64,000 bases of DNA, from positions 186,001-250,000 of the forward strand of contig NZ_QJOW01000002.1 of assembly GCF_009184545.1 (NCBI RefSeq), in the 5' to 3' direction. The notes below the pieces were generated by a model, which saw only the letters and a list, made by a program, of their open reading frames with translations, did no database searches and was not told where the DNA came from. Below, piece after piece: positions 54,225 to 62,865 of the stretch. How positions within the stretch are numbered: the first letter of the stretch is position 1; each line of letters begins with the position of its first letter. The position numbers were made by a program, and so were the translations under genes. Source of the stretch: Halosegnis rubeus. Lineage in GTDB: Archaea > Halobacteriota > Halobacteria > Halobacteriales > Haloarculaceae.

Positions 54225-54242
54225 TGCATACAACTGTATGCA
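54225..54242. promoter_or_regulatory. TGCATAC-AACT-GTATGCA palindrome before vapB
   Basis: Perfect 7-base arms with a 4-base centre end one base before the preferred vapB start (54244) and overlap an alternative ATG (54238). VapB antitoxins usually repress their own operon by binding palindromes at the start; position and symmetry fit that role. Confidence 0.6.
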
Positions 54243-54243
54243 C

Positions 54244-54480
54244 ATGTCGAAGAGTATCCGTCTCTCCGAGGACGCCTACGAGCGTCTCGCCGCGCACAAG
54301 CAGGAGGACGAGACCTTCTCAGATGTCGTTCTCCGGCTCGCGGGTGAGCGGTCGTTGCTCGAACTCGCAGGAATCCTCAGCGACGAGGAGGCTGATGAAC
54401 TCCGAGACGCTGTGGCGGAGCGTCGAGAGAGTCGTAGCAAAGAACTCGAAGATATCGCTGGCGAGATGCGAGGGACGTAG
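54244..54480 (+). CDS. vapB: VapB-type antitoxin (UPF0330/DUF217 family)
   Basis: From ATG 54244 (ATG 54238 lies inside the palindrome), 78 residues: an amino-terminal ribbon-helix-helix-like start (SKSIRLSEDAYERLAAHK), SDVVLRLAGERSLLELAGILS and a basic/acidic helical tail that should wrap the toxin. It matches archaeal UPF0330 antitoxins. It precedes the PIN toxin gene by one base, as is usual for VapBC. Confidence 0.88.
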   Translation: MSKSIRLSEDAYERLAAHKQEDETFSDVVLRLAGERSLLELAGILSDEEADELRDAVAERRESRSKELEDIAGEMRGT

Positions 54481-54481
54481 C

Positions 54482-54871
54482 GTGCTCCTTGACACGTCGT
54501 TTCTCATTGACTTGATGAACGGCGACGAGGGAGCAGTTGAGAAGGCGAAGCAATTAGAACGCAATCTTGTCCAGCAACGCCTCTCATCAATGACGCTGTT
54601 CGAGCTGTACTACGGAGTTGCTCGCTCAAGCCAATCCCAAGACGAACGTGAGAAAATCGAGAACATCCTTGCCTCGAAACCAATCCACCCCGCCGATACC
54701 GCCGTGATGCGGAAGGCTGGCCGGCTCTCTGGCGAGTTGGTGAGTGAAGGAAATGCGGTTGGAGATGGGGATGTGATTATCGGCGCGACCGCCGATGTTG
54801 TCGACGAACCAGTCCTCACACGAAACGTAGACGACTTCGAACGTCTGGGTGTTGAGATAGAGACCTACTGA
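54482..54871 (+). CDS. vapC: VapC-type PIN ribonuclease toxin
   Basis: The 129 residues from GTG 54482 have PIN acidic residues: Asp4 in VLLDTSFLID, Glu41 in LFELYYG, then Asp in GDGDVIIGATA and Asp in RNVDDFERL. The enzyme cleaves RNA, often tRNA or rRNA, and is held by VapB. The codon use and GC are visibly lower than in flanking genes, suggesting later arrival. A start overlapping vapB is excluded by the stop and spacing. Confidence 0.88.
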   Translation: MLLDTSFLIDLMNGDEGAVEKAKQLERNLVQQRLSSMTLFELYYGVARSSQSQDEREKIENILASKPIHPADTAVMRKAGRLSGELVSEGNAVGDGDVIIGATADVVDEPVLTRNVDDFERLGVEIETY

Positions 54872-55211: not shown

Positions 55212-55286
55212 TGGGTTCGGGCGGATTTGAACCGCCGGCCTCCTCCATGTCAAGGAGGTGTCATAACCAGCCTAGACCACGAACCC
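55212..55286 (-). tRNA. tRNA-Val (anticodon GAC)
   Basis: Read on the minus strand, GGGTTCG ... CGAACCC forms the acceptor stem (discriminator A at 55212), the anticodon arm CCTCC-TTGACAT-GGAGG gives anticodon GAC, and the T arm is GGCGG-TTCAAAT-CCGCC. All four arms fold, with GTC/GAC pairs in the D stem. No intron is seen and CCA is not encoded. A T-rich stretch and a hairpin follow the 3' end. Confidence 0.95.
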
Positions 55287-55379
55287 CTGTTCCACTCTCG
55301 GGTAGCCCGGTGGTACAATTGAAGGTTTCGAATCGCCACCTCTCACCTGCGTCCCGTGGCTCCGACACGCTTTTACGAA

Positions 55380-55395
55380 TGTACAGACTTGTACA
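55380..55395. promoter_or_regulatory. TRP-box-like TGTACA-GACT-TGTACA element
   Basis: Two TGTACA copies separated by four bases directly precede and touch the TATA-like CTATAA (55396-55401) of the trp operon. TGTACA is the TRP-box consensus bound by TrpY in Methanothermobacter (established knowledge). A bound factor would block TBP/TFB access. No trpY-like gene lies next to it. Confidence 0.6.
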
Positions 55396-55401
55396 CTATA
55401 A
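55396..55401 (+). promoter_or_regulatory. TATA box of trpDFEG
   Basis: CTATAA centred about 28 bases upstream of ATG 55427 fits archaeal leaderless initiation; this supports choosing 55427 as the trpD start. Confidence 0.6.
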
Positions 55402-55426
55402 CACAGTATCGAACATTATGACGGAC

Positions 55427-56434
55427 ATGACACAGTACCTCGAACGGGTGACGGGTGGAAAAGACCTGACGCAGGCGGAGGCGCGAACCGCCGCACGGCT
55501 CGTCTTCGAGGACGCGACCGAGGCACAGATCGGCGCACTGCTCGCGGCGTTGCGCGCCAAGGGAGAGACCGAAGCCGAGATTGCGGGGTTCGCCGAGGGG
55601 ATGCGCGAGGTGGCCAACACCATCGCCCCCGACCGCCGGCCGCTCGTCGACACCTGCGGCACGGGCGGTGACGACTACGACACCATCAACGTCTCCACGG
55701 CCGCGACTATCGTGACTGCGGGCGCGGGCGTCACGGTCGCGAAACACGGCAACTACTCCGTCTCCTCCTCCTCGGGGAGCTCCGACGTGCTCGCCGAACT
55801 CGGTGTCGACCTGGAGTCGACTCCCGACGCCGTCGAAGAGCGCATCGAGCGCGACGGCATCGGCTACATGCACGCGCCGGCGTTCCATCCGGCGATGAAG
55901 GCCGTCATCGGGCCGCGCCGCGAACTCGAAATTCGGACGGTGTTCAACGTCCTCGGGCCGCTGACCAATCCAGCAGACGCGGACGCACAGGTCGTCGGCG
56001 TCTACGACCCTGACCTCGTGCCCGTGGTCGCGCGGGCGCTCGACCGCGTCGGCGTCGACCGCGCGCTCGTCGTCCACGGCTCCGGGATGGACGAAATCGC
56101 GCTCCACGACGACACCGCCGCCGCCGAACTCCGCGACGGGGACATTGAGGAGTACACCATCACGCCCGAGGACCTCGGACTCGACCGCGCCCCCGTCGAG
56201 GAAATCTCGGGCGGCACACCAACCGAAAACGCCGCCGACCTCCGCGATATCGTCACCGGGCAACTCGACGGTCCGAAACGCGACATCATCCTCGCGAACG
56301 CCGGGGCGGCTATCTACGTCGCCGGCGAGGCCGAGTCGCTCGCCGCGGGTGTCGAGCAGGCCCGCGAGGCCATCGATTCGGGCGCTGCGGGCGAGACGCT
56401 CGAAACGCTCGCCGGCGGCGAGGTGAGCCTCTGA
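55427..56434 (+). CDS. trpD: anthranilate phosphoribosyltransferase
   Basis: TrpD joins anthranilate to PRPP. From ATG 55427 (ATG 55418 is an alternative), 335 residues with VDTCGTGGDDYDTINVSTAATI (PRPP site, about 72-93), KHGNYSVSSSSGSSDVLAELG and IGPRRELEIRTVFNVLGPLTNPA. First gene of trpDFEG; its TGA overlaps the trpF ATG by one base (TGATG). Confidence 0.97.
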   Translation: MTQYLERVTGGKDLTQAEARTAARLVFEDATEAQIGALLAALRAKGETEAEIAGFAEGMREVANTIAPDRRPLVDTCGTGGDDYDTINVSTAATIVTAGAGVTVAKHGNYSVSSSSGSSDVLAELGVDLESTPDAVEERIERDGIGYMHAPAFHPAMKAVIGPRRELEIRTVFNVLGPLTNPADADAQVVGVYDPDLVPVVARALDRVGVDRALVVHGSGMDEIALHDDTAAAELRDGDIEEYTITPEDLGLDRAPVEEISGGTPTENAADLRDIVTGQLDGPKRDIILANAGAAIYVAGEAESLAAGVEQAREAIDSGAAGETLETLAGGEVSL

Positions 56435-57054
56435 TGGTGCGCGCGAAGGTGTGTGGACTCACCTCCGAGACGGACGTGGAGGCGGCCGTCGAGGCCGGCG
56501 CGGACGCGGTCGGCTTCATCGTCGACGTGGACGTGGACTCCTCCCGTGAGATCTCCGCGGAGAAGGCCGCAAGTTTGGAGGCGAGCGTGCCGCCGTTCGT
56601 CACGACGACGCTCGTCACGATGCCCGACAACGCCGCGCAGGCGATTACCCTGGCCGACCTCGTGCAGGTGGATGCGATTCAAGCCCATGGGCTTGACCCC
56701 TCCTCGCTGTCGGTCGTCATCGAGAGCTTCCGCGGGCCGGTGTTCCCCGCTATCACGCCCGCGGAGATTCCCGAGTACGAGAACCTGGGCGACGCGCTGT
56801 TGGTCGATACCCCGAGCGAGGACGGCGGCGGTGGCACCGGCGAGACGCACGACTGGGCGGCCACGCGGGACGCGGCCGCCGACCTCGACCGCCCCCTCAT
56901 CCTCGCGGGCGGGCTGACCCCCGACAACGTCGCCGAGGCAATCGAGACGGTCCGGCCGTACGCCGTCGACGTGGCCTCGGGCGTGGAGGCCGCGCCGGGC
57001 GAGAAGGACCCCGACGCCGTCGAGGCGTTCGTCGAGCGGGCCCACCGCGCATGA
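56434..57054 (+). CDS. trpF: phosphoribosylanthranilate isomerase
   Basis: TrpF isomerises N-(5-phosphoribosyl)anthranilate to CdRP. The 206-residue TIM barrel has the catalytic Cys in KVCGLTSETD (about 5-14), DAVGFIVDVD, VDAIQAHG (about 81), LILAGGLTPDNVAEAI (about 155-170), and VDVASGVEAAPGEKD (about 178-192) with catalytic Asp region. Overlaps trpD and trpE (4 bases) on both sides. Confidence 0.95.
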   Translation: MVRAKVCGLTSETDVEAAVEAGADAVGFIVDVDVDSSREISAEKAASLEASVPPFVTTTLVTMPDNAAQAITLADLVQVDAIQAHGLDPSSLSVVIESFRGPVFPAITPAEIPEYENLGDALLVDTPSEDGGGGTGETHDWAATRDAAADLDRPLILAGGLTPDNVAEAIETVRPYAVDVASGVEAAPGEKDPDAVEAFVERAHRA

Positions 57055-58613
57055 GTTTCGACACCACCCGCGAACGGTTCACCGAGCTCGCGGGCACAGA
57101 GCCGACGGTCGTCCGACTGGAAGCGCCCATCGACGCCGACGTGGAACCGCTGTCGGCGTACGCCGCCCTCGTCGGCAGAACGACTGACACCGACCGTGCG
57201 GACTACTCGTTCCTGTTGGAGTCGGCCCAGAAGGTCGCCTCCTCGGACCCGGACGGCGCGTTCTCGACCGACGAGACCGACCGCCACGCCCGCTACTCGT
57301 TCGTCGGCTACGACCCCGTCGGCGTCGTCACGGTCGGTCCCGACGGTGCCGACGCGGATAGCTTCGATGATCGCTACGACGACCTGCTCGCGCCCGACGC
57401 CGACGGCGACTGCATCGACACGCTCCGAACCGCGCTGCCAGACGTACCTCGGGAGAACTTCGCCGAGAGCGACCGCCGCCATCTCGACGGCGGGTTGGTC
57501 GGCTTTCTCGCGTACGAGGCCGTCTACGACCTCTGGCTCGACGAGGTGGGCGTCGACCGCCCCGACACCGAGTTTCCGGACGCGCAGTTCGTCCTCAACA
57601 CGAAGACGCTCGTCTTCGACGACGAAGCCGACTCTCTCTCGCTGGTCTGCACGCCGGTCGTCGACGAGTCCGACGCGGGACGGGTGTACGACGCCCTTGC
57701 CGACGAGGTCGAACGCGTCGAGGACCTGCTCGCGCAGGCCGACCCACCGGAGACGGGCGGATTCACGCAGGCGGGCGAGACCGCCGGGCCACAGCCGGAG
57801 TACGAGGACGCGGTCGACCGCGCGAAAGAGCACGTCCTCGACGGCGACATCTATCAGGGCGTCATCTCGCGCACCCGTGAACGGACTGGCGAGGTCGACC
57901 CCCTCGGCTTCTACCGTGCGCTCCGCGAGGTGAACCCCTCGCCGTACATGTATCTGCTCGGCTACGGCGACCGAACCGTGGTCGGGGCATCGCCCGAGAC
58001 CCTCGTCTCCGTGCGCGGCACAGAGGTGATGGCCAACCCGATTGCCGGTACCTGTGCCCGCGGCTCCTCGCCCGTTGAGGACCGCCGACTCGCCGGCGAG
58101 ATGCTCGCCGACGGGAAAGAGCGGGCCGAACACACGATGCTCGTGGACCTCGCACGCAACGACGTGCGCCGGGTGAGCGAGGCCGGCAGCGTCCGCGTCG
58201 ACGAGTTCATGAACGTCTTGAAGTACTCACACGTCCAGCACATCGAGTCGACGGTGACGGGGACGCTCGCCAGCGATTCGGACGCGTTCGACGCGACCCG
58301 TGCGGCGTTCCCTGCCGGAACGCTTTCGGGTGCGCCGAAGGTGCGCGCGATGGAAATCATCGACGACCTCGAACGCACGCCACGAGGCCTGTACGGCGGC
58401 GGCGTCGGTTACTACTCGTGGTCGGGCGATGCGGACTTCGCCATCGTCATCCGGACGGCGACGGTCGATACCGCCGGCGACGAAGACACCATTACCGTGC
58501 AGGCCGGTGCGGGCATCGTCGCGGACTCCGACCCCGAACGCGAGTACGAGGAGACTGAAAAGAAGATGGGCGGCGTGCTCGACGCGCTCGACGCCATCGC
58601 GGAGGAACCATGA
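57051..58613 (+). CDS. trpE: anthranilate synthase component I
   Basis: TrpE makes anthranilate from chorismate and ammonia supplied by TrpG. The 520 residues include the LLES tryptophan feedback motif (SFLLESAQKVASSDPDGAF, about 50), and the chorismate core ISRTRERTGEVDPLGFYRALREVNPSPYMYLL, VGASPETLVSVRG, NPIAGTCARGSSPVEDRRLAGEMLADGKERAEHTMLVDLARND, and FPAGTLSGAPKVRAMEII. So end-product inhibition is expected. ATGA links it to trpG. Confidence 0.97.
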   Translation: MSFDTTRERFTELAGTEPTVVRLEAPIDADVEPLSAYAALVGRTTDTDRADYSFLLESAQKVASSDPDGAFSTDETDRHARYSFVGYDPVGVVTVGPDGADADSFDDRYDDLLAPDADGDCIDTLRTALPDVPRENFAESDRRHLDGGLVGFLAYEAVYDLWLDEVGVDRPDTEFPDAQFVLNTKTLVFDDEADSLSLVCTPVVDESDAGRVYDALADEVERVEDLLAQADPPETGGFTQAGETAGPQPEYEDAVDRAKEHVLDGDIYQGVISRTRERTGEVDPLGFYRALREVNPSPYMYLLGYGDRTVVGASPETLVSVRGTEVMANPIAGTCARGSSPVEDRRLAGEMLADGKERAEHTMLVDLARNDVRRVSEAGSVRVDEFMNVLKYSHVQHIESTVTGTLASDSDAFDATRAAFPAGTLSGAPKVRAMEIIDDLERTPRGLYGGGVGYYSWSGDADFAIVIRTATVDTAGDEDTITVQAGAGIVADSDPEREYEETEKKMGGVLDALDAIAEEP

Positions 58614-59185
58614 CCGTCGTCATCGTCGACAACTACGACTCGTTCACGTACAACCTCGTGGAGTACGTCAGCCAACACGGCATCGACGTGGCCGTCGAGA
58701 AGAACGTCGCCGCCCTCGATACCGTGCGAGGTCACGACCCCGACGGCATCATCATCTCGCCGGGACCGGGCCACCCGAAGCACGACCGCGACGTGGGCGT
58801 TTCGGCGGACGTGCTCACTGAGCTATCGCCCGAGGTACCGACCCTCGGCGTCTGTCTCGGACTCGAAGCCGCGGCCTACGAGTACGGCGGGACGGTCGGG
58901 CGCGCGCCCGAACCGGTCCACGGGAAGGCCTCGCCAATCGACCACGACGGCGAGGGGGTCTTCGTCGGTCTCGACCAGGGGTTCCAGGCCGGGCGCTACC
59001 ACTCGCTCATCGCGACCGAGGTGCCCGAGGTGTTTGACACGACAGCGCGCACGGCCGACGACGCCGCGCTCGTGATGGGGATTCGCCACGAGTCGTATCC
59101 GCTCGAAGCCGTCCAGTTCCACCCGGAGTCGGTGCTCACGGGCGTCGGTCACGACATCATCGACAACTTCCTCGCGACGCTCTAG
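58610..59185 (+). CDS. trpG: anthranilate synthase component II (glutaminase)
   Basis: The 191-residue class I glutaminase has VIVDNYDSFTYNLVEYV at the start, ISPGPGHPKHDRDVG, nucleophile Cys in TLGVCLGLEAAAYEYGG (about 83), and AVQFHPESVLTG with catalytic His and Glu (about 170). GLE replaces the common GHQ after the nucleophile, a haloarchaeal trait as I recall. Last gene of the trp operon; its stop overlaps a convergent small gene by four bases. Confidence 0.96.
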   Translation: MTVVIVDNYDSFTYNLVEYVSQHGIDVAVEKNVAALDTVRGHDPDGIIISPGPGHPKHDRDVGVSADVLTELSPEVPTLGVCLGLEAAAYEYGGTVGRAPEPVHGKASPIDHDGEGVFVGLDQGFQAGRYHSLIATEVPEVFDTTARTADDAALVMGIRHESYPLEAVQFHPESVLTGVGHDIIDNFLATL

Positions 59186-59672: not shown

Positions 59673-59731
59673 CGCCACGGAATCTCCACATGAACATGAC
59701 CATCCACGCCACACAGACAGAGGCCCGATAA
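59669..59731 (+). CDS. possible 20-aa leader ORF 2 of nrdJ
   Basis: ATG 59669 overlaps ORF 1, encodes MTPRNLHMNMTIHATQTEAR, and its TAA shares one base with the nrdJ ATG (TAATG). This is the same kind of junction used for translational coupling elsewhere in the window (EMC6-ABCE1). No sequence family is known; it may be a regulatory leader peptide or chance. Confidence 0.35.
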   Translation: MTPRNLHMNMTIHATQTEAR

Positions 59732-62700
59732 TGTCCGGAACGGACCTCTCTGCGGACGACCTCGAACTGCCGATCAAACGCACCGACGGTGAGACGCTCG
59801 AAGACCGACTCACTGCGAACGCCTACCACAATATTCTCCCCGCGCGGTATCTCCGCCAGAACCAGGACGGCGAACTCACCGAGAGCCAGGAGGACCTCTT
59901 TTCCCGCGTCGCGAAGAACATCGCGCTCGCGGAAGCCGTCTTCGAGTCCGACAAGCGCGGCGTCGACGCGACTGTCACGCCGGACCAGCTCAAGCCCGAC
60001 CACCCGCGCCGCGATGAGCTCGCCGCCGAGGTGTTCGGTGCCGGCACGGCCGCAGACGACGACGCCGAGACCGAGCTCTCCGTTTACAACGTCAACAAGT
60101 TCGCCTACGACACCGTCGTTCCCGAACTCCCCGACGGGGTTCGCGCCCACGTCCAGGACAAACGCGAGGAGTTCCAGAACGTGATGGAGCGGCTCTCGTT
60201 TATCCCGAACTCGCCGACGCTGATGAACGCCGGCGACGAGCTTCAGCAGCTGTCGGCGTGTTTCGTCGACTCGCCCGAAGACGACCTGACGGACATCCAC
60301 CAGACGGCCAAGGAGGCCGCCGAGGTGTTCCAGTCGGGCGGCGGCATGGGGTACGCCTTCTGGCGGCTCCGCCCGTACGGTGACGCGGTCGGCTCGACCG
60401 GCGGCATCGCCTCCGGGCCGATTACCTTCATGCGGACGTTCGACCAGATGTGCGAGACCATCGCACAGGGCGGTGCTCGCCGCGGTGCCCAGATGGGCGT
60501 CATGCGCATCTCTCACCCGGACGTCATCGAGTTCATCCACGCCAAGAACAAGGATGTGAGCCTCGCGCACTGTCTCCGGCTCAACGACCCCGACGACTAC
60601 ACGTACACGACGTTCTCGGAGGCGCTCGAAGAGGCGCGCGGGCTCATCGACGACGACGGCAAGGTGCCGAAACACCTCCGTAACGCCGTCGAGGGCCACC
60701 TCTCGAACTTCAACATCTCCGTCGGCGTGACGGACGACTTCATGGACGCGCTCGACTCGGGCGAGGAGTTCACGTTCACGAACCCGCGCACGGGCGAGCC
60801 ACACATCGCCAGCGAGGAGACCAAGGAGATGTACTCCCGCTACGGACTCGGCGACGAGGTCGAGGTCGGCGAGCCGTTCTCCATCGACCCGAACCTCGTC
60901 TGGGAGCGCATCGTCGACGGCTCCCACGAGAACGGCGAGCCGGGCGTCGTCTTCCTCGAACGCATCAACAAGCAGCACTCCTTCGACGTAGAGGAGCACC
61001 CGGACCACCAGATTCTCGCGACGAATCCCTGCGGGGAACAGCCGCTCGAGGAGTACGAGGCCTGTAACCTCGGCCACATCAACCTCTCCACGCTCGCGGC
61101 TGACTCTGCTCCCGACTGGCGTGTCTGGTCGCAGAACAACGAGTTCGACACGCTGGAGGAGGGCGTCGAGCAGTTCCTGAGTGAGGCACTCGACACCGAG
61201 GAGTTCGACGAGCGCATCGAGACCGGCACGCGCTTCCTCGAGAACGTCGTCACGATGTCGGACTTCCCGGTCGAGAAGATCGAACAGAAGGTCCGCGAGA
61301 TGCGGAAAATCGGGCTTGGCGTCATGGGACTCGCCCAGCTGTACGTCCAACTCGGCATCCGCTACGGCAGCGACGAGGGCAACGAAGTCGCCCGGCAGGT
61401 CATGCAGCGTATCAACCACGGTTCGAAGGCGGCGTCTCACGAACTCGCGACCGAGCGCGGCTCCTTCGACGACTGGGACGACTCCAAGTACGCGAACCCG
61501 ACCGAGTACCGCGAGTGGTTCGAGAACCAGACCGGCGAGTCGGCCGACGACTGGGCCGACGGCTACCCGATTCGCAACCACAACACGACCACCATCGCGC
61601 CGACCGGCACGACCTCGATGGTCGGCAACACGACGGGCGGCTGTGAGCCGATCTACAACGTCGCCTACTACAAGAACGTCTCCGACGACGTGCAGGGCGA
61701 CGAGATGCTCGTCGAGTTCGACGACTACTTCCTGCGCACGCTGGAGGCCAACGACATCGACGTGGAGGCCGTCAAGCAGGAGGCTCAAGAGCAGATGGCG
61801 ACAAACGAGTTCGACGGCGTCGAGGGACTCGACACCGTGCCGAACCCCATCGGCGAACTGTTCGTCGTCACCTCCGACCTCTCGGGCATCGAGCACGCCG
61901 CCGTGCAGTGTGCCTGTCAGGTCGGCGTCGACTCGGCCATCTCGAAGACGTGTAACTTCCCGAACTCCGCGACGCCGGAGGACATGGACGAGGTGTTCCG
62001 CTACATCTACGAGAACGGAGGCAAGGGCGTCACGGTCTACCGCGACGGCACCCGCTCGAAGCAGGTGCTCACCACGCGCGCGGAGAACACGGAGTTCTCC
62101 GAGGACATGGACCCCGAGGAGGCCGCACCGGTGCTCGCAGAGCGCATCCAGGAGATCTTCGGCGGGCTAGACGAGTTCCTCAGCCACGAGGAAGTCACCG
62201 CGGCACTGGAGACGGCCCCCGAGGAACTGTTCAGCTTCGACGAGCACGCCTACGCCGAAAAGCAGAGCCGGCCGGACCTGCTCCACGGCGTGACCCAGCG
62301 CATCGACACCGGCTACGGGAAGCTCTACGTCACCATCAACGAGGACACCGAGCGCGAGCGACCGTTCGAGCTGTTCGCGACCATCGGCAACTCCGGTGGC
62401 TTCACAGCGAGCTTCACCGAGGCGCTCGCGAAGACCATCTCCACCGCGCTCCGGTCGGGCGTCGCGCCCGAGGAGATTGCGAGCGAACTGCGCGGCATCC
62501 GCTCGCCGAAGGTCGCGTGGGACAAGGGCGAGCAGGTGAACTCCATCCCGGACGCCATCGGCACCGCGCTCCAGCGCTACCTCGATGACGACATCGACAA
62601 GCCGTACCCACAACAGCAGCGCCTCTCCGAGGCGGCCGACGCCACGGAGACCGACCCGAACCGCGAACCCGAGCCGACGCCAGAGACGGACGGCGGCGCG

Positions 62701-62865
62701 AACGCGCTCGGCGAGCCGACGAGCGAGAGTCTGGCGAGCGACGACGCCACCGACTCGCTGCTTGCCGCCGGCGAGTCGCCGGAGTGTCCCGACTGTGGGG
62801 CGATGTCGCTCGCGATGAACGAGGGCTGTAAGACGTGTCAGTCCTGCGGCTGGTCGGAGTGTTAG
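59731..62865 (+). CDS. nrdJ: adenosylcobalamin-dependent ribonucleotide reductase, class II
   Basis: NrdJ makes deoxyribonucleotides using B12. The 1044 residues include LSACFVD (first redox Cys, about 170), GGGMGYAFWRLRPYGDAVGSTGGIASGP, ATNPCGEQPLEEYEACNLGHINL (radical Cys/Glu region, about 430-452), IAPTGTTSMVGNTTGGCEPIYN, the second redox Cys in CACQVGVDSA, a TSCPD-like region (GYGKLYVTINEDTER..., about 865-940) and a carboxyl zinc ribbon CPDCGAMSLAMNEGCKTCQSCG. No intein is seen, although haloarchaeal homologues often carry one. Confidence 0.96.
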   Translation: MSGTDLSADDLELPIKRTDGETLEDRLTANAYHNILPARYLRQNQDGELTESQEDLFSRVAKNIALAEAVFESDKRGVDATVTPDQLKPDHPRRDELAAEVFGAGTAADDDAETELSVYNVNKFAYDTVVPELPDGVRAHVQDKREEFQNVMERLSFIPNSPTLMNAGDELQQLSACFVDSPEDDLTDIHQTAKEAAEVFQSGGGMGYAFWRLRPYGDAVGSTGGIASGPITFMRTFDQMCETIAQGGARRGAQMGVMRISHPDVIEFIHAKNKDVSLAHCLRLNDPDDYTYTTFSEALEEARGLIDDDGKVPKHLRNAVEGHLSNFNISVGVTDDFMDALDSGEEFTFTNPRTGEPHIASEETKEMYSRYGLGDEVEVGEPFSIDPNLVWERIVDGSHENGEPGVVFLERINKQHSFDVEEHPDHQILATNPCGEQPLEEYEACNLGHINLSTLAADSAPDWRVWSQNNEFDTLEEGVEQFLSEALDTEEFDERIETGTRFLENVVTMSDFPVEKIEQKVREMRKIGLGVMGLAQLYVQLGIRYGSDEGNEVARQVMQRINHGSKAASHELATERGSFDDWDDSKYANPTEYREWFENQTGESADDWADGYPIRNHNTTTIAPTGTTSMVGNTTGGCEPIYNVAYYKNVSDDVQGDEMLVEFDDYFLRTLEANDIDVEAVKQEAQEQMATNEFDGVEGLDTVPNPIGELFVVTSDLSGIEHAAVQCACQVGVDSAISKTCNFPNSATPEDMDEVFRYIYENGGKGVTVYRDGTRSKQVLTTRAENTEFSEDMDPEEAAPVLAERIQEIFGGLDEFLSHEEVTAALETAPEELFSFDEHAYAEKQSRPDLLHGVTQRIDTGYGKLYVTINEDTERERPFELFATIGNSGGFTASFTEALAKTISTALRSGVAPEEIASELRGIRSPKVAWDKGEQVNSIPDAIGTALQRYLDDDIDKPYPQQQRLSEAADATETDPNREPEPTPETDGGANALGEPTSESLASDDATDSLLAAGESPECPDCGAMSLAMNEGCKTCQSCGWSEC

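Follow-up and report, generated by a model that had tools for sequence, protein, structure and literature searches.

A 10-bp-phased TGTACA array conserved at the trp promoters of haloarchaea, a candidate tryptophan operator

Background

The TRP box, as described by Xie and Reeve, reportedly reads TGTACA. In M. thermautotrophicus, TrpY acts at TRP boxes to repress trp; the Thermococcus protein shows no binding to the trp promoter of its host, and haloarchaeal homologues are placed by the published tree in separate uncharacterised branches, outside the branch of the characterised TrpY (PMC6737238). Both trp operons of Halobacterium salinarum are induced when aromatic amino acids are lacking; the regulator was left open, and lrpA2 (trh1), up 14.9-fold without aromatic amino acids, was suggested for this role (PMC4162585). 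The trp operons of Haloarcula hispanica depend on TrmB without a nearby TrmB site, additional factors being expected, and HAH_0923 was suggested as one (PMC10817205). With reference to Large et al. 2007, one paper describes the trpCBA promoter of H. volcanii as not being under tight regulation (PMC13147458). No haloarchaeal TGTACA or TrpY regulon was found in the literature searched.

Results

The window, i.e. the whole 64,000-nucleotide stretch of Halosegnis rubeus DNA analysed, carries a complete trpDFEG operon, all four genes being matched by family models (Table 1). The sequence TGTACAGACTTGTACA, found at 55380-55395 ahead of trpD, contains two TGTACA hexamers separated by four bases, with a start-to-start distance of 10 bp. 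The pair, the operon behind it and the LLES motif of TrpE had all been reported in an initial annotation of this DNA, and were found as described.

Lone TGTACA hexamers are common in the genome (313 in the 2.54 Mb scanned), and their excess in a shuffle test of the window (7 observed vs. 2.75 expected) is weak, so that spacing over the whole genome was used instead. TGTACA-N4-TGTACA in its exact form occurs once genome-wide, at trpD, 0.04 such pairs being expected by chance in 2.54 Mb. The trpD pair is also the only case in the 2.54 Mb scanned of two TGTACA hexamers at most 40 bp apart.

A divergent tRNA-Val(GAC) gene (55212-55286, minus strand) lies upstream of trpD, a layout seen at 10 of the 13 haloarchaeal trpD loci checked; the Halogranum locus has two tRNA copies. 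At 54238-54871 (plus strand) a small ORF resembling an antitoxin precedes one resembling a PIN-domain protein, probably a VapBC-like pair. Downstream of trpG, a long ORF (59731-62865, plus strand) looks like a B12-dependent ribonucleotide reductase. Both assignments were made by eye from the translations.

Table 1. Promoter elements and genes of the trpDFEG operon in the window; column numbers refer to the alignment of 81 trpD promoters
Feature	Position	Strand	Evidence
BRE CGACA	55363-55367	+	columns -17 to -13 read CGAYA at 74-100% (n=81)
TATA box TTTTA (TTAAG in most relatives)	55371-55375	+	TT invariant in 81/81
Half-site 1, TGTACA	55380-55385	+	at least 4/6 identical in 81/81, 6/6 in 22
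Half-site 2, TGTACA	55390-55395	+	at least 4/6 identical in 81/81, 6/6 in 40; G, C, A (columns 11, 14, 15) invariant
Degenerate phase-20 position, AACACA	55400-55405	+	column 24 is C in 81/81; low overall identity to TGTACA
Phase-30 half-site, CGAACA (CGTACA in many relatives)	55410-55415	+	C, A at columns 34, 35 invariant
trpD	55418-56434	+	TIGR01245, 426 bits; ATG at 55418 or, from the alignment of relatives, at 55427
trpF	56434-57054	+	PF00697 PRAI, 115 bits
trpE, LLES at residue 55	57051-58613	+	TIGR01820, 575 bits
trpG	58610-59185	+	NF041322 haloarchaeal anthranilate synthase component II, 336 bits

The trpD promoter of the window was aligned with those of 80 haloarchaeal trpD loci (n=81). 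Conservation sets in abruptly at the BRE, the mean information rising from 0.19 bits per column upstream to 1.24 within the element. The promoters share the same order, BRE (CGAYA), TATA box (TTAAG or TTTTA), TGTACN, TGTACA at +10, a degenerate copy at +20, and CGTACA at +30, joined to TTGGTG; half-sites thus follow the BRE and TATA box at phases 0, 10 and 30 bp. The exact TGTACA pair is found in 21 of the 81 promoters. Conservation of both hexamers in the relatives had been named beforehand as a test of the initial proposal, and each of the two half-sites retains at least four of the six TGTACA residues in all 81. TTGGTG follows the phase-30 half-site in most relatives (about 70-93% per column), and is probably a Shine-Dalgarno sequence.

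The haloarchaeal TATA consensus is TTWT, and a haloarchaeal BRE has also been described (PMC4983044). According to the initial annotation the hexamers abut the TATA box; the AT-rich CTATAA on their right is not conserved as such, the conserved box being the TTTTA upstream of the hexamers. Judging from TATA spacing, transcription of trpD is expected to start at about 55397-55401, just downstream of half-site 2, which places the two boxes after the TATA box and ahead of this start.

A 10-bp-phased TGTACA-like array was found also at trpCBA, in each of the 30 haloarchaea whose trpC promoters were compared. Here a BRE (CGCAAG) and a TATA box (CTTAT) precede TGTACA, GTNCR at +10, TGTACA at +20, and then the ATG, self-similarity peaking at shifts of 10 and 20. 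The ATG is 3-4 nt past the last box, and trpCBA appears leaderless. In H. rubeus the site is located on contig C6 near 768156, ahead of trpC-trpB-trpA and an aldolase-like gene; the latter occupies the same position as OE1472F in Halobacterium (PMC4162585).

Matrices trained without the H. rubeus lineage were run over 2.54 Mb of the genome, about 0.12 Mb being outside the scan. The trpD (48.0 bits) and trpC (29.8 bits) promoters have the highest scores, the next hit scoring 13.2, and only trpD and the trpC region remain when a looser half-site search is combined with promoter criteria. Three-phase TGTACA-like arrays at C10:40091 and C8:138977 have no TATA box, and are probably due to chance. 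No convincing further regulon member was found in the 2.54 Mb scanned, over which the element seems to serve tryptophan synthesis alone.

A search for TrpY homologues in haloarchaea, also envisaged at the outset, found a TrpY-family gene in all of 391 genomes, with one match each save for a few exceptions. H. rubeus encodes one such protein (NF053754, 229 bits vs. a cut-off of 180). Phylum-wide, the family is encoded in 118 of the 119 genomes sampled, in 117 of them above the cut-off; two genomes of family f20 (G430 and G438) are the only ones sampled without a match above it. No case of joint absence of TrpY and trpC occurs in the sampled haloarchaea, both being universal there.

The AlphaFold2 model of the TrpY-family protein features N-terminal helices and a pair of strands, followed by a C-terminal ACT fold, which is nearest to amino-acid-binding ACT domains and matches Lrp-type regulators too. 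At the sequence level the match to the Pfam ACT family (22 bits) is below the threshold of 27, no HTH family was matched, and a search of solved structures returned nothing beyond spurious hits to ankyrin and weak ones to ACT. The trpY-family gene of H. rubeus resides on contig C8, the trp operons on C7 and C6, and gene and operons are therefore unlinked. TGTACA is missing from all 30 trpY-family promoters compared, and this promoter was rejected as an autoregulated target.

TGTACA elements were also monitored outside haloarchaea. They reside in the trpC promoter of all nine McrA-positive genomes (families f13 and f19) in which trpC leads the operon, and some of these promoters share the 0/10/20 phasing, as TGTACATCATTAGACATCATTGTACA at locus L292. 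In genome G461 the sole pair found genome-wide (at most one mismatch) sits just upstream of trpE. No TGTACA was found in the trpC promoter of three McrA-negative f15 genomes, although these encode a TrpY-family protein. Searches confined to 10-bp spacing and at most one mismatch detected no boxes near trpE in the methanogen families f14, f27, f28 and f29, and no TGTACA pair near trpE in the TrpY-less family f20 (G430, G438). Membership in the TrpY family hence does not guarantee a role at trp operators, as f15 genomes lack TGTACA at trpC and Thermococcus TrpY does not bind the trp promoter.

Discussion

The tandem hexamer is almost certainly part of a trp operator conserved in haloarchaea. Since the array is kept ahead of both trp operons in all sampled haloarchaea and in some methanogens, a regulator that senses tryptophan very probably docks there. 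Judging from sequence and family distribution, the TrpY-family protein is likely to bind it as a tryptophan-dependent repressor. The initial annotation had envisaged either a TrpY-type element reaching beyond methanogens or a convergent operator. The first part holds for the cis-element, found at 81 trpD promoters, at trpCBA and in McrA-positive relatives; convergence is disfavoured, because an element common to McrA-positive relatives points to inheritance from a methanogenic ancestor. We lean towards a reading in which a 10-bp-phased TGTACA operator, inherited from that ancestor and bound by an unlinked, universal TrpY-family protein, still controls the two split trp operons.

The hexamer pair would then form the central part of an operator through which tryptophan controls trpDFEG and trpCBA. 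Its half-sites, separated by integral helical turns (10 bp), would share one face of the double helix in the interval from TATA box to transcription start. With tryptophan on its ACT domain, the TrpY-family protein, a predicted HTH/ACT protein, would occupy several boxes cooperatively, and the occupied boxes would block recruitment of RNA polymerase; when tryptophan is absent the boxes would be released. Feedback inhibition of TrpE would provide a second, separate layer of control.

Conservation of the block might reflect only a basal promoter and a ribosome-binding sequence, with no specific regulator, as BRE, TATA box and the Shine-Dalgarno-like TTGGTG do fall inside it. This is very improbable: the strongest conserved columns outside these three are the phased half-sites, which recur at trpCBA despite a different leader, while the trpY-family promoters of the same genomes do not feature the block. 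Basal promoters, moreover, would recur genome-wide, and in the 2.54 Mb scanned the matrices match trp promoters only. Even harder to credit is an RNA element, such as an attenuator or riboswitch, in the leader. The predicted trpD leader does include the phase-30 half-site and TTGGTG, but is only about 30 nt long, two of the boxes are upstream of the predicted start, and trpCBA appears leaderless; in an Rfam scan tRNA alone exceeded the gathering score, which also counts against such an element at trpD.

The array could be a genuine tryptophan or aromatic operator and yet be bound by a different protein. Lrp proteins combine an HTH with an ACT-like domain, and a regulator of the Lrp/AsnC family, for instance LrpA2 (trh1), might recognise the boxes, although we consider this improbable. 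The induction of lrpA2 in H. salinarum led to the proposal of LrpA2 as regulator, but is correlative, and direct control was called open by the authors themselves (PMC4162585). The half-sites, on the other hand, agree with the TRP box linked to TrpY and recur in methanogen relatives, and no conserved regulator gene was found adjoining trpD. Binding by some other transcription factor, e.g. a TrmB paralogue, is unlikely too; we know of no factor of this type recognising TGTACA, and the cis-element occurs in methanogens as well. The TrmB dependence of the H. hispanica operons, without a nearby TrmB site, and the suggestion of HAH_0923 do speak for it, but the Haloarcula response was measured to glucose, not to tryptophan (PMC10817205). 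Counting against the TrpY-family protein as binder are its gene's lack of linkage to trp, the box-free promoter of that gene, the f15 genomes and Thermococcus TrpY mentioned above, and the loose regulation ascribed to H. volcanii trpCBA (PMC13147458).

If control by the TrpY-family protein is real, an element common to haloarchaea and methanogens would date trp regulation before the origin of haloarchaea. To our knowledge, no earlier tryptophan repressor system of haloarchaea has been described. The haloarchaeal TrpY branch, to which no function is assigned, would gain one (PMC6737238), and operator and single candidate regulator would connect this branch with the induction observed in Halobacterium (PMC4162585) and the Haloarcula response lacking a TrmB site (PMC10817205).

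Comparison with known systems

LrpA2 (trh1) of H. salinarum resembles the candidate regulator as a proposed haloarchaeal regulator of aromatic amino-acid genes; it belongs, however, to the Lrp/AsnC family, and the case for it is one of expression correlation, direct control being unproven there (PMC4162585). Tar (TK0271) of Thermococcus kodakarensis is another archaeal protein that regulates trp and further aromatic amino-acid operons at the level of transcription, but it is an activator of three operons, and trp is not under the control of the TrpY homologue in that organism (PMC6737238). Methanogen trpY is autorepressed and has a promoter region in common with trpE (PMC6737238), whereas the haloarchaeal gene is unlinked and has a promoter free of boxes. 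The haloarchaeal arrangement would work like the TrpY/TRP-box system, but full membership is not claimed, since the regulator gene is neither linked to trp nor autoregulated and binding is a prediction. Haloarchaea differ from that system also in having two split operons, and arrays of three to four 10-bp-phased half-sites placed after the TATA box. They share with it boxes of the TGTACA type reportedly bound by TrpY, the location of these boxes at trp promoters, trp genes as targets, and an encoded TrpY-family protein.
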